A program made the translations under genes and the position numbers. DNA of 64,000 nt from Thermophagus xiamenensis (GTDB lineage Bacteria; Bacteroidota; Bacteroidia; Bacteroidales; Marinilabiliaceae): positions 124,001 to 188,000 of the forward strand of contig NZ_FONA01000002.1 in NCBI RefSeq assembly GCF_900112795.1, given 5' to 3'. The notes under the pieces are model-generated. The model made no database searches, had not been told where the DNA came from, and worked only from the letters and a program-made list of their open reading frames with translations. Positions 20,439-56,285 of this stretch are shown one piece after another (positions within the stretch are counted from its first letter, which is position 1; every line of letters begins with the position of its first letter).

Positions 20439-20836
20439 GGGGCTGACATGGACTTGACAGCAGGGTAAAGTGGTAAGTAAGCATGCCGAGCGTTGGGTGG
20501 CTGGCTCGTTAATCCCAGGACTCAGACTTTTAACTGGCGAAAACAATTACGCTCTCGCTGCTTAATCGAAGCATAGTAGATTAAGCTTAATCCCGACCCA
20601 AGGGGACGGGACGAGACATCTCCCGGAGGCCGTTGTTTCGGGGCGCTCCGATCAGGAGGTGCAGGTAAACCGGAACTAGTCTGAAGAGGGCTCCGATCTT
20701 CAGGCGAAATTTAAGGAGCTAAGGGTTGGTTCGGGTGTCGTTTCCCAGACCAATCACGAAAACCAAAAAACGACTAAGCATGTAGAAAGCTTATGGCTTC
20801 CTTGTCTGGACCCGGGTTCGATTCCCGGCAGCTCCA
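20439..20836 (+). ncRNA. ssrA: tmRNA (ssrA)
   Basis: One-piece tmRNA of about 398 nt. The 5' end GGGGCTG pairs with CAGCTCC near the 3' end (one G:U) to form the tRNA-like acceptor, and the T-arm GGGTTCGATTCCC is intact; CCA is not encoded. The tag frame at 20536-20565 reads GENNYALAA then TAA, giving the tag (A)GENNYALAA, the usual Bacteroidota form. Function: rescues ribosomes stalled on broken mRNAs and tags the product for proteolysis. Its 3' end is a known integration hotspot, and an AbiE toxin-antitoxin pair lies just downstream. Confidence 0.97.
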
Positions 20837-20847
20837 CTCATTAGAAA

Positions 20848-48920: not shown

Positions 48921-50240
48921 ATGAATAAAAAAATACTAATAATCGATGATGATACATCTTTTAGTCTAATGGTGAGTGGATATTTGGCCAAAAATGAGAT
49001 GGAAACCACAACGGCCGGCTCATTTTATAAAGCCAAATCCCTGATTGACAAGGAATATTTCGATTTAATTTTATCTGATCATCGATTGCCAGACGGAAGC
49101 GGACTGGATGTTTTGAGTTATTCCAAAAGCAAAAATCCGGATATTCCGGTTGTGCTAATTACTGCCTATTCTGATATCCGGGTGGCGGTAAATGCCATCA
49201 AAAAAGGGGCTTATGAATATATCACCAAGCCGGTAAATGCGACGGAATTGCTTCATATTGTTCAACGGGCGTTAAAAAGCAATTCCCATTCCACATCTTT
49301 ATCCAACGACTACATCGTTAGTGTAGGGAGCCAATCAAAAGAGATGGACGAACATATTCGTTTAGTAGCCCCAACCGAAGTTGCTGTACTTATCCAGGGT
49401 GAAAGTGGAACGGGAAAAGAATATGTTGCCCGTCGGATTCATGAACTCAGCCATCATCGGCAAGATCCCTTTGTAGCAGTAGATTGTGGGGCACTAACCA
49501 CTGAAATAGCCTCGAGCGAACTATTCGGCCATGAAAAAGGAAGTTTTACGGGTGCAGTTGATGATAAAATAGGTCATTTTGAAAGTGTAGGTAAAGGGAC
49601 CATCTTTTTGGACGAAGTAGGGAATTTAAGCTACAATGTACAAATTAAATTGCTACGAGCCATACAAGAACGCAGGGCACATCGGGTTGGTAGTAACAAA
49701 GAATTTCCCATAAAAGCACGCATTATAGCCGCCTCCAATGACGATTTGAGACAAAAAGCTAAAGAAGGCGGTTTTAGAGAAGATCTATTTCACCGGCTCA
49801 ATGAATTTACAATACATGTTCCGCCGTTAAGGAATCGCTCAGATGAATTGCCCACGTTTATCAATCATTTTTGTAACGAGGCGGCCAAAGAATTTGGCAA
49901 AAATATCCATGGATTTTCGGATGAAGTGATGGAAGTATTTCAGCACTATGACTGGCCCGGAAATCTTCGCGAACTAAGAAATGTGGTTCGAAGGTCGGTC
50001 CTCCTCAGTAAAAATGAATGGATTGGCATAGAGGCCATTCCCCCCGAAATAGCCGAACCTCTATCAATGCAGCCTTCTACTCTTATTAAATATACCGAAG
50101 CAAAAGAAATAGCTGAGAAAAAACTCATTGAAGAAACGCTTCGAAAGGTTAAACACAACAAAAGCAAGGCCGCCCGCTTGTTAGGCATTGACCGAAAAAC
50201 GCTATACAATAAGCTTCAAAAACTAAACATCGACTATTAA
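48921..50240 (+). CDS. NtrC-family sigma-54-dependent response regulator
   Basis: 439 aa. Receiver domain (1-120) with the phospho-acceptor Asp53 in LILSDHRLPDGSG; AAA+ domain with Walker A GESGTGKE (160-167), the sigma-54 loop written GSFTGA (GAFTGA is more usual) and ALTTEIASSELFGHEKG; and a Fis-type helix-turn-helix at the end (SKAARLLGIDRKTLYNKL). It should activate sigma-54 promoters when phosphorylated. The hybrid histidine kinase at 50.6-53.1 kb faces it and is the nearest candidate partner. Confidence 0.93.
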   Translation: MNKKILIIDDDTSFSLMVSGYLAKNEMETTTAGSFYKAKSLIDKEYFDLILSDHRLPDGSGLDVLSYSKSKNPDIPVVLITAYSDIRVAVNAIKKGAYEYITKPVNATELLHIVQRALKSNSHSTSLSNDYIVSVGSQSKEMDEHIRLVAPTEVAVLIQGESGTGKEYVARRIHELSHHRQDPFVAVDCGALTTEIASSELFGHEKGSFTGAVDDKIGHFESVGKGTIFLDEVGNLSYNVQIKLLRAIQERRAHRVGSNKEFPIKARIIAASNDDLRQKAKEGGFREDLFHRLNEFTIHVPPLRNRSDELPTFINHFCNEAAKEFGKNIHGFSDEVMEVFQHYDWPGNLRELRNVVRRSVLLSKNEWIGIEAIPPEIAEPLSMQPSTLIKYTEAKEIAEKKLIEETLRKVKHNKSKAARLLGIDRKTLYNKLQKLNIDY

Positions 50241-53336: not shown

Positions 53337-54305
53337 ATGCAATATAAAGATTATTACAAAATATTAGGGGTATCCAGGCAAGCTAGTCAAGAGGAAATAA
53401 AAAAAGCGTACCGAAAACTGGCAATACAATATCATCCTGATAAAAATCCGGGTGATAAAAGTGTCGAAGAACGCTTTAAGGAAATCAACGAGGCCTATGA
53501 AGTACTAAAAGACCCTGAAAAACGGGCAAAGTATGACCAATTAGGAGCAAACTGGGAACAATATGAGCAAGCAGGCTTCGGCGCCAATGAGCATTATGGT
53601 TTTGGCGGTTTTAACTGGTCACAATTTGGCTCACAAAACCAAGGTCATAGCACAACTTTCCATTTCGAAGAAGATTTAAAGGATTGGTTTGGTGATAGAG
53701 ATAGCGGTTTTTCCGATTTCTTCAATATGTTTTTTGGCAATTTTGGAGGTTCTCGATCTCAACGATATGGGAACCGCCACACTACCAAAGGAAAGGACTT
53801 GCATGCCGAAATAGAACTATCAATTTACGAAGCTTATCATGGTACAACAAAAATATTGAACGTTGATGGCCATAAACTGAAAATACACACCAAACCAGGG
53901 GCCTACGAAGGACAGGAATTAAGGGTTAAAGGAAACGGGCGGAAAGGTATAGGCGGCGGACCTAATGGCGATCTATACCTCAAAATCAGAATTCGCCCTC
54001 AATCAGACTTTAAAGTACAGGGACATAACATCCTAAAGGAAGTTCCTATAGATCTTTATACCGCCATTTTGGGCGGGAAAGTTACCATACAGACTCTAGA
54101 TGGTAGAATTAATATTAACATACCTAAAGCTTCTCAACCAGATAAAGTATTAAGAATTAAAGGAAAGGGAATGCCAATTTATAATGAACCCGGGAAATAT
54201 GGTGATTTATTGCTCAAATTGAAAGTAAATATACCGGATAATCTCACCGAACAAGAAGAAAGGCTATTTCAACAACTGAGAGATTTACATCGTTACAATA
54301 ATTAA
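53337..54305 (+). CDS. cbpA: CbpA-type DnaJ co-chaperone
   Basis: 322 aa. J-domain (1-70) with the HPD motif at 33-35 that stimulates DnaK, a Gly/Phe-rich linker ([19 protein letters not shown]), and the two C-terminal substrate-binding β domains ([37 protein letters not shown]). The cysteine-rich zinc domain of DnaJ is absent, hence CbpA-like. Start ATG 53337 gives the usual [12 protein letters not shown]. Monocistronic. Confidence 0.93.
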
Positions 54306-54507: not shown

Positions 54508-54512
54508 CAAAA

Positions 54513-54549
54513 AAAGAGTTATAACCTTTGAGGTTGTAACTCTTTTTTT
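54513..54549 (+). terminator. Terminator after tRNA-Met
   Basis: AAAGAGTTATAACC, five-base loop, GGTTGTAACTCTTT, then T-rich; a 14-bp stem with one wobble pair. Confidence 0.88.
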
Positions 54550-54642: not shown

Positions 54643-54724
54643 AAAAAAAGAGGCTGCCTAAAACAACCTCTTTCCCTTTAAATCAGCATTTGCTAACCAA
54701 ATCCAAGTCTATGAAAAAAATCTA
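54643..54724 (-). ncRNA. Candidate small RNA, unit 1 of 3
   Basis: On the minus strand a CATATTTG box (54737-54730) precedes CATAGACTTGGATTTGG, then TGATTTAAAGGG and a terminator hairpin GAGGTTG/CAGCCTC with a T run. Unit 2 has the same body with a different terminator stem. No ORF on this strand. Transcript limits are estimates. Confidence 0.45.
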
Positions 54725-54822
54725 CTGTGCAAATATGAGCATTATTATTATTAAGAACAGCAAAACTGCCTTAAAGCTTGTTAACTTCACTAATTTTAGA
54801 GCGTAATTTAGCTTTCAACAAC

Positions 54823-54905
54823 AAAAAAAGGACAGCTACTATGAAGCACTGTCCTTTCCCCTTAAATCAGCTTTGTTAACCAAATCCAAATCTATGAAAA
54901 AAAAT
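54823..54905 (-). ncRNA. Candidate small RNA, unit 2 of 3
   Basis: On the minus strand an exact TATCTTTG box (54919-54912) precedes CATAGATTTGGATTTGG, GTTAACAAAGCTGATTTAAG and the terminator GGACAG...CTGTCC with seven T. The stem sequence differs from unit 1 while pairing is kept, which argues for a conserved RNA structure. Confidence 0.5.
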
Positions 54906-54977
54906 CTGTTACAAAGATATGCTTAAATCCCCTTAAAAAGACACAAAGGCGGTTAAACGAGGTTAAAAATACAACTG

Positions 54978-55045
54978 GAAAAAGGAACCACTTAAATCAG
55001 GTTCCTTTACCCAGTTATTTTAAATCTAAGTTTTATGAAAAAATC
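54978..55045 (-). ncRNA. Candidate small RNA, unit 3 of 3 (most diverged)
   Basis: On the minus strand a CATATTTG box (55060-55053), CATAAAACTTAGATTT, then a long hairpin AAGGAACC/GGTTCCTT nested inside AACTGG/CCAGTT. The body matches units 1 and 2 only in part (TTTTTTCATA, TGATTTAAG). Confidence 0.35.
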
Positions 55046-55207
55046 CCATTTACAAATATGACTAATAATTAAACAAAACCCCCAACAAAATAAGTTAATT
55101 AATGTTAACCCCAAACATAGAAATAACAGAAATTCAACAGTTACCCTTCGTCAGACAAATTTAGAAATCAATGATTTTATGTAATAAAACAAATCAATAA
55201 ATATCCA

Positions 55208-55561: not shown

Positions 55562-55706
55562 AATTTCTTATTTTTAAATTGTTCATAAATCTTTATTTGT
55601 TTTGCCTATTGGACGCGTCCAATTTTCCATTGGTTACAAAAAATTCCTAAAAAAATTATCGGATAATCTGTAACCAGAACCCTTGTTAACACGTCTCACT
55701 TTCACG

Positions 55707-56285
55707 ATGCGCACAAAAGATGACAAAATTATTATTAAACAAGTTTTAAAAGGAGATGTAGCCGCTTTTTCGGTACTTATCGATCGGTATCGGCATATGG
55801 TTTACACTTTAGCATTTCAAATAACCAAAAATAAATCTGATGCTGAAGAGGTGGCCCAGGATGCATTTCTAAAAGCCTTTCAGGCATTAGCTAGTTTTGA
55901 AGGAAGAGCGTCCTTTTCCACATGGATTTATCAAATTACATTTCATCAGGCTATATCTAAAATCAGACAAAACAAAAAACATAATCTTTCATATAAAGAA
56001 AATATATCAAACGAAAATAGTCCGTTAACTGATGATAACATTACAGGTCAATTATTAGAAAGAGAAGACCGAAAACGCTTTTTGAATGAAGCACTCTCCC
56101 GTTTAAAAGGAGAAGAATCTTTTATTTTAATATTGTACTATTACGAAGATCTTAATATAGAAGAAATTGCTAAAATTACGGGATATTCAGCAACCAACGT
56201 AAAGGTAAGACTGTTTAGAGCTCGGCTTAAACTACATAACGAATTAAAAATATTACTCAAATTAGAGACCAATTCGCTTTTGTAG
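55707..56285 (+). CDS. ECF-type RNA polymerase sigma factor
   Basis: 192 aa from ATG 55707; an upstream TTG at 55683 would add eight residues but the ATG start MRTKDDKIIIKQVLKGD is standard. Sigma region 2 (RYRHMVYTLAFQITKNKSDA, WIYQITFHQAISKIR) and region 4 (YYEDLNIEEIAKITGYSATN) are complete. Followed after 65 bases by a two-helix membrane protein that is a likely anti-sigma factor, and divergent from the DUF6249 gene. Typical envelope-stress module of the phylum. Confidence 0.93.
   Translation: MRTKDDKIIIKQVLKGDVAAFSVLIDRYRHMVYTLAFQITKNKSDAEEVAQDAFLKAFQALASFEGRASFSTWIYQITFHQAISKIRQNKKHNLSYKENISNENSPLTDDNITGQLLEREDRKRFLNEALSRLKGEESFILILYYYEDLNIEEIAKITGYSATNVKVRLFRARLKLHNELKILLKLETNSLL

Follow-up and report, generated by a model that had tools for sequence, protein, structure and literature searches.

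Three neighbouring genes on the minus strand most likely make short regulatory RNAs, which are predicted to block the synthesis of outer-membrane sugar importers. By sequence, the three units, u1, u2 and u3, are members of an sRNA family that is present in multiple copies in Marinilabiliaceae. The explanation that we consider probable for the whole locus is a tandem set of sister sRNAs of FopS and GibS, which would be switched by a direct repeat and would block SusC/RagA translation starts.

The units were located in the window, the whole stretch of 64,000 nucleotides that was analysed (Table 1). In each unit, a −7 box resembling TAnnTTTG was followed by a T-rich 5′ body with CATA and by a hairpin with a T tract. 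The body common to u1 and u2 was GATTTTTTTCATAGAyTTGGATTTGGTTArC...GCTGATTTAArGGG. The body of u3 was CATAAAACTTAGATTTAA, which contained no GGTTARC and had in common with the others the part around TTTTTTCATA and GATTT alone, and the TGATTTAA of u3 sat inside the hairpin loop, not 5′ of the hairpin. The initial annotation had described three minus-strand units with box, body and hairpin; this description fitted u1 and u2 in full and u3 less closely, the body of u3 being shared only in part. The u3 unit is real: in its seven orthologues at Marinilabilia/Anaerophaga loci the 5′ half was almost invariant, and the folds shared their outer stem but differed in the inner ones.

Table 1. Positions of the units, their promoter elements and the neighbouring genes in the window
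Feature	Position	Strand	Remarks
DnaJ-type protein	53337..54305	+	neighbour; tblastn, Pfam
sRNA unit u1	54643..54727	−	seed GATTTTTTTCATAGACTTGGATTTGGTTAGC; terminator hairpin 54643-54677; 5′ end approximate
−7 box of u1, CATATTTG	54730..54737	−	aligned with relatives
Direct repeat of u1, TTAAC-N5-TTAAG	54770..54784	−	one mismatch
sRNA unit u2	54824..54908	−	seed GATTTTTTTTCATAGATTTGGATTTGGTTAAC; hairpin about 54830-54857
−7 box of u2, TATCTTTG	54912..54919	−	aligned with relatives
Direct repeat of u2, TTAAC-N5-TTAAC	54952..54966	−	exact
sRNA unit u3, subclass A′	54974..55049	−	starts GGGATTTTTTCATAAAACTTAGATTT; hairpin about 54974-55015
−7 box of u3, CATATTTG	55053..55060	−	
Direct repeat of u3, TTAAC-N5-TTAAC	55094..55108	−	exact
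DUF6249 protein, 117 aa	55208..55561	−	conserved neighbour; tblastn in relatives, Pfam
ECF sigma factor	55683..56285	+	conserved neighbour; tblastn, Pfam

Seed complementarity to SusC translation starts

The plus strand read ATGAAAAAA in all three units, and that of the u2 seed was GTTAACCAAATCCAAATCTATGAAAAAAAATC, in which a leader is followed by a start codon and two lysine codons. The seed is antisense to AUG-AAA-AAA (MKK-type) translation starts, which explains the plus-strand TCTATGAAAAAA. In the genome that holds the window (hereafter the own genome), the AUG-AAA-AAA start pattern had 24 matches, compared with 11 for the reversed pattern.

In two genomes, the seeds were predicted to pair better with SusC starts than with those of other genes, and the excess lay mainly at the start codon. 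For each gene, the region from −32 to +20 was paired with 36 nt from the 5′ part of u1 or u2 and the best duplex was taken, using plain duplex energies without accessibility and the first ATGs of ORFs of at least 120 aa as starts. The own genome contained 28 SusC genes above the TIGR04056 cut-off, of which 27 were used, one being lost to filters, and the background comprised 284 ORFs from 20 stretches and the window (283 later, after one SusC-identical ORF was removed). The median energy was −17.6 kcal/mol for the 27 SusC genes and −11.9 kcal/mol for the 284 other ORFs (p = 7.6e-8), and none of 100 shuffled seed pairs reached the SusC difference. When nine windows along the genes were compared, the start-codon window stood out (p = 7.9e-8), and one other window, at +100, was nominally below 0.05 (p = 0.019). 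In the second genome (G008), for which its own two seeds were used, 24 SusC genes gave −16.2 compared with −12.2 for 159 ORFs (p = 2.3e-4; 0 of 100 shuffles), and one other window, at −110, had a p value of 0.0096. The pairing of u3 was weaker, with a SusC median of −10.7 against −8.5 (p = 1.3e-4; p = 0.04 against K/R starts), and some u3-like units in Geofilum and Alkaliflexus were without the CAT anti-start triplet.

The seed might instead act as a general blocker of Met-Lys/Arg-Lys starts, and so of exported proteins at large, without being specific for SusC. This is unlikely, as SusC exceeded the ORFs with K/R at codon 2 in both genomes (57 ORFs in the own genome, p = 1e-4, and p = 1.3e-5 by z-scores; 58 ORFs in G008, p = 2.7e-3) and also the 92 signal-like ORFs of the own genome (p = 4.8e-6). 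On the other side, several of the best-pairing starts did not belong to SusC genes (5 of the best 14 in the own genome and 6 of the best 14 in G008, where a non-SusC ORF tied for the best pairing). The best BLAST antisense site to u1 in the own genome outside the units (91% over 31 bases, E = 9.8e-4) likewise favours a general blocker, being the leader of a 38-aa lipoprotein-like ORF (L131:9883-10018, C33), about 2.1 kb from an RRM_1 gene.

Less probable again is that the RNAs serve mainly as ligands or sponges of RRM-1 (RbpB-like) proteins, with target pairing secondary. FopS is described to bind RbpB (PMC11697453, sections consulted), two RRM_1 proteins were found in the own genome (73 and 69.4 bits), and some relatives hold many copies of the unit. 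However, the same sections report that FopS-10 of B. thetaiotaomicron blocks the translation of susC mRNA and that RbpB relieves the block, and a sponge would leave the seed complementarity to SusC starts unexplained.

Seed variants were also present in relatives. In L274, L275 and L277-L280, the variants TTTTCTCAT and TTTCTTCAT were antisense-like to AUG-AGA-AAA and AUG-AAG-AAA, which gives the impression that seeds follow the Lys/Arg codon choice at starts.

Structure, distribution and locus of the units

The minus-strand folds were better than those of dinucleotide shuffles, with z values of −3.3, −3.2 and −2.9 for u1, u2 and u3, respectively. The three terminator stems that had been named earlier were present in the folds, where they differed in sequence and yet paired. 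A simple terminator scan reported the u1 hairpin alone, the hairpins of u2 and u3 being known from folding. A single-stranded 5′ part followed by an intrinsic terminator, which is a trait of FopS, was present, as indicated by the 3′ hairpins in the folds of u1–u3 and by the covariation of the hairpin. In addition, the 5′ part of u1, like the consensus, was predicted to form a weak second helix, which showed no compensatory changes.

BLAST of u1 (E ≤ 0.01) gave matches in 37 of 61 genomes (the own genome and 60 relatives), of which 33 were among the 37 Marinilabiliaceae genomes and 4, with weak matches, among the 24 genomes of other families of the order. The covariance model that the initial annotation had suggested was built and searched, and a multicopy family was found. 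This model (R1) was derived from alignment A4, which contained 31 units, namely u1, u2 and 29 units from relatives. At E ≤ 0.01, R1 matched 44 of the 61 genomes, namely 35 of the 37 Marinilabiliaceae and 9 of the 24 others; among the matches listed, all those of at least 60 bits were in the own family and one genome had at least 14. The scores of u1 and u2 were 86.7 and 93.0 bits, both units being in the model by construction, and that of u3 was 27.3 bits. When 295 genomes drawn from the order were searched, with 15 candidates scored per genome, 14 had a match at E ≤ 1e-4, including 10 outside the family at 38.6–45.8 bits. The exact core pattern was found in 31 stretches of the genome collection, 27 of them Marinilabiliaceae by title and genus; the remaining four came from two MAGs of Bacteroidales, a MAG with Cytophagaceae in its title, and a Formosa. 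The stretch from Formosa maritima (L160) contained the core and a hairpin but lacked a −7 box where one is usual, and was not counted as a member.

In the alignment of 31 units, 7 of the 10 terminator pairs were changed on both sides and 96.4% of the cells were paired. None of 500 shuffles was as good on any of five measures as the whole structure, which was itself derived from this alignment. The earlier proposal of selection on the stem structure was borne out by these both-side changes, which are usual in terminators.

The order u3-u2-u1 was kept in all seven Marinilabilia/Anaerophaga loci read, and the DUF6249 gene was located just upstream of u3 in six of them, the seventh locus beginning there. 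When 60 loci of relatives, some of which are the same contig under two names, were searched by tblastn, DUF6249 had matches in 12 loci on 7 distinct contigs and the ECF sigma factor in 6 loci on 5 distinct contigs, and 3 loci matched the DnaJ-type protein. The tRNA neighbourhood was not conserved, with no tRNA in 31 of the 32 loci scanned, most of which reach 1.5 kb per side, and two tRNA-Glu in the other one. A further hairpin with a T tract was observed at 54509-54549, just past the tRNA of the window and convergent with u1.

A mobile or neutral repeat without function, for which the multicopy, tandem and dispersed occurrence might speak, is very improbable in view of the compensatory stem changes, the direct repeat conserved despite a variable spacer, and the locus and unit order conserved in relatives. 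The least probable reading, which the initial annotation had raised as its alternative, is that the units are plus-strand leaders or attenuators: the plus-strand motif of all three units and the plus-strand fold of u3 (z −3.4, about equal) could suggest it, but no plus-strand ORF of at least 60 aa follows before 55683, the −7 boxes and direct repeats are on the minus strand, and u1 and u2 fold better there (plus-strand z −1.4 and −1.9, both weaker). Tandem paralogous sRNAs, as proposed at the outset, here with a common seed, are the best reading, with the minus-strand −7 box, repeat and terminator at fixed spacing in relatives.

Direct repeat and the two promoter types

The direct repeat was analysed in units sorted into classes; hits without a downstream T run of four, or too near the locus end, were excluded, and the class "other" holds clear false hits. 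When 64 class A and A′ units were aligned at the TTTG end, T-55, T-45 and A-43 were present in 64 of 64, both TTAAC boxes were exact in 42 and at least one was exact in 59; this count presupposed TTTG but not the repeat, the units share a common descent although their spacers vary, and L203 and L225, which have no −7 box, were excluded. Of the 57 class A units, 55 had [TCG]AnnTTTG and 29 had the strict TAnnTTTG; for the 9 A′ units, these counts were 9 and 0. The comparison with the sigmaABfr type was made on the −7 element alone.

Exact TTAAC-N5-TTAAC repeats occurred in the window only twice, at u2 and u3. With one mismatch allowed there were 12 repeats compared with 9.1 expected, which is not above chance, and the repeat of u1 therefore rests on its position. 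The combined pattern of repeat and −7 box gave 100 matches in 37 genomes, compared with 5 for the reversed pattern (88 versus 2 in 23 genomes of the own family; 12 versus 3 in 14 genomes of others).

In a set of 123 distinct pattern matches, which was chosen partly for containing units and partly by a selection of places and does not have the proportions of a genome, a script placed 82 before FopS-like units and 31 before ORFs, and left 10 undecided; by eye, L393 and L397 were doubtful among the 82, and L163 and L370 among the 10 were sRNA units. The 31 ORFs included nine MoxR-type ATPases (one by Pfam, the rest by likeness), three of which were from other families. Seven encoded small exported Lys/Cys-rich proteins, and one a similar protein without cysteine. 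Furthermore, there were two DUF3298/PdaC lipoprotein-like proteins (one checked), one OmpH/Skp-like protein and one M50 peptidase with a PDZ domain (RseP-like). The moxR-type genes behind the repeat and −7 box were at L350, L352, L356, L359, L374, L388, L390, L392 and L398, and the small exported proteins, the function of which is not assigned, at L361 (without a Pfam match), L362, L373, L380, L381, L386 and L396. A Pfam search of 10 of the repeat-associated proteins left five without a match. Single genes associated with the repeat may be chance, whereas MoxR and the exported proteins recur.

The own genome had four exact matches to the pattern, at u2, at u3, about 150 bases before unit C26:112801, and at C33:90185, and moxR was absent from these four. 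The short stretch behind the repeat and −7 box at C33:90185 (L387) ended in a GC-rich hairpin and a T tract, and may be a further sRNA that is unrelated to the units.

Stress and aerotolerance have been linked to MoxR and Bat proteins. Given that FopS is induced by bile salts, possibly via a regulator, according to the sections consulted of PMC11697453, our best guess for the putative regulator of the TTAAC repeat is an envelope-stress regulator. RprY was considered for this role; the parts consulted of the literature on RprY gave no consensus. The TTAAC direct repeat with its other genes and the split of paralogues between sigma70-type and sigma54-type promoters are new here; in the portions of the literature searched, no description was recognised of the repeat with other genes or of a sigma54-type branch.

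A subclass with the same seed has sigma54-type promoters, as judged from sequence. Class B comprised the units with the body ATTTGGGTT and was chosen by body, not by promoter. TGGCA[CT]-N5-TTGC was located upstream of 9 of 18 class B units compared with 0 of 66 class A and A′ units (Fisher p = 1.3e-7), and the TTTG box was present in 0 of 18 compared with 64 of 66 (Fisher p = 2e-16), both p values being too small as the units are related. The 25 "other" units had 1 sigma54-type promoter and 7 TTTG boxes. A first class split (A 56, A′ 11, B 18, C 6, other 34), which was later replaced, gave like strict sigma54 counts (B 9/18, A and A′ 0/67, other 3/34). The hairpin loops of class B often hold CAACGG.

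In relatives, FopS-like units with sigma54-type −24/−12 promoters were seen at L033, L035, L037, L195, L196, L204, L234, L235 and L238. RpoN was present in the own genome, and the window encoded a response regulator with a Sigma54_activat domain (48921-50240, Pfam). The class B model R2 detected two further divergent units of the own genome, C26:112801 (L271:302-376; 43.3 bits) and C33:11036 (L270:237-310; 40.4 bits), neither of which was used to build it. By eye, C26:112801 had a weaker sigma54-like box. In one of these two units the seed was TTTTCTCAT, which is antisense to a start that reads AUG-AGA-AAA. A study of a flavobacterium connects sigma54 promoters with envelope stress and with the quality control of proteins (PMC9723704, as far as consulted).

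Proposed function and comparison with known systems

At the gathering score, Rfam reported for the whole window a tmRNA and a tRNA alone; the tmRNA gene was at 20439-20839. In a permissive search, the other rows of which (microRNAs etc.) were mostly chance, FopS (RF04319) was aligned end to end on the minus strand with u2 (27.9 bits) and u1 (27.3 bits), and u3 scored 16.3 bits, all three being below the gathering score of 56 bits. GibS (RF04182) gave 23.4 bits with u1, end to end, and 18.2 bits with u2, both below its gathering score of 115. Weak RF04319 rows alone say little, because at E ≤ 1 they occurred in 59 of 61 genomes and even in Bacillus subtilis, among the controls. One such row in the own genome (C34:134769, 27.7 bits) had no T-tract seed by eye and was dropped.

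When the published FopS seed consensus (PMC11697453), which had served there to predict targets, was aligned to u1, u2 and u3, the scores were 33, 38 and 29, and none of 5000 shuffles reached each. RF04319 exceeded its cut-off in 5 of the 61 genomes, all of which were outside the own family. At G057:C5:69788, in another family of the order, FopS was above the Rfam cut-off (69.1 bits) and R1 matched in the same register with 33.4 bits, and G051:C3:215369 scored about 36 bits with both RF04319 and R1. Judged on these alignments, u1–u3 are distant relatives of FopS, with a 5′ body homologous to the FopS seed, and are not members by the Rfam rule.

FopS and the units have in common the 5′ seed TTTTTCATAG..TT.GATTT..GGTTAACAAA, the 3′ terminator, the −7 box, several copies, an RRM-1 protein in the genome, and SusC starts as targets, which are here predicted. 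The units differ from FopS in that GATTT and GGTTAAC are closer by two bases, the T tract is longer and an additional GCTGATTTAAGGGG block is present; they also carry the TTAAC direct repeat, occur in tandem arrays and have sigma54-type paralogues. The 5′ seed of GibS is of the same kind and is likewise antisense to regions around start codons; the units are much shorter, and GibS is reported with another promoter type, PM2 (PMC7366714, sections consulted). We find it likely that the units are a Marinilabiliaceae sister group of the Bacteroides FopS/GibS sRNAs, with a probable SusC-repressing role.

In the proposed mechanism, the three tandem units would be separately transcribed as trans-acting sRNAs of about 75-85 nt, and a regulator binding TTAAC-N5-TTAAC would switch their sigma70-type promoters on. 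The 3′ hairpin would terminate transcription. The largely unpaired 5′ seed (GAUUUUUUUCAUAGA...GGAUUUGGUUAAC) would pair across the start codon of AUG-AAA-AAA mRNAs, mainly those of SusC/RagA outer-membrane transporters, and ribosome binding would be blocked. An RRM-1 protein (RbpB-like) probably binds the u1–u3 RNAs. The signal for the regulator would most likely be envelope stress, and the net effect a stress-induced repression of SusC synthesis.

The seed of the FopS kind is now seen in Marinilabiliaceae, beyond the Bacteroidaceae range within which FopS is described as conserved (PMC11697453, sections consulted). The TTAAC repeat is a concrete candidate site for a FopS-type regulator in Marinilabiliaceae and links that candidate site to other genes, and some paralogues have sigma70-type and others sigma54-type promoters. 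Why many copies of one sRNA are kept in these bacteria becomes a directly testable question, and the array offers a candidate way for Bacteroidota to cut outer-membrane protein synthesis under stress.

MicA and RybB are sigmaE-controlled enterobacterial sRNAs that repress OMPs. The units may work in a like manner, by a stress-controlled stop of outer-membrane protein synthesis at the start codon; no sequence relation is claimed. More tentatively, a Bacteroidota counterpart of the sigmaE-MicA/RybB circuit can be imagined, a possibility toward which we lean less than we lean away, in which a repeat-binding regulator would co-activate envelope upkeep genes and SusC-silencing FopS-like sRNAs, and a sigma54 branch would drive same-seed paralogues under other signals. 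The envelope upkeep genes would be moxR, the small exported proteins and, perhaps, the OmpH/Skp-like chaperone and the RseP-like protease. Tandem or multiple paralogous sRNAs with a common seed are also represented by OmrA/OmrB and Qrr, which the units resemble in their adjacent or multiple paralogues and common seed and from which they differ in sequence and host.
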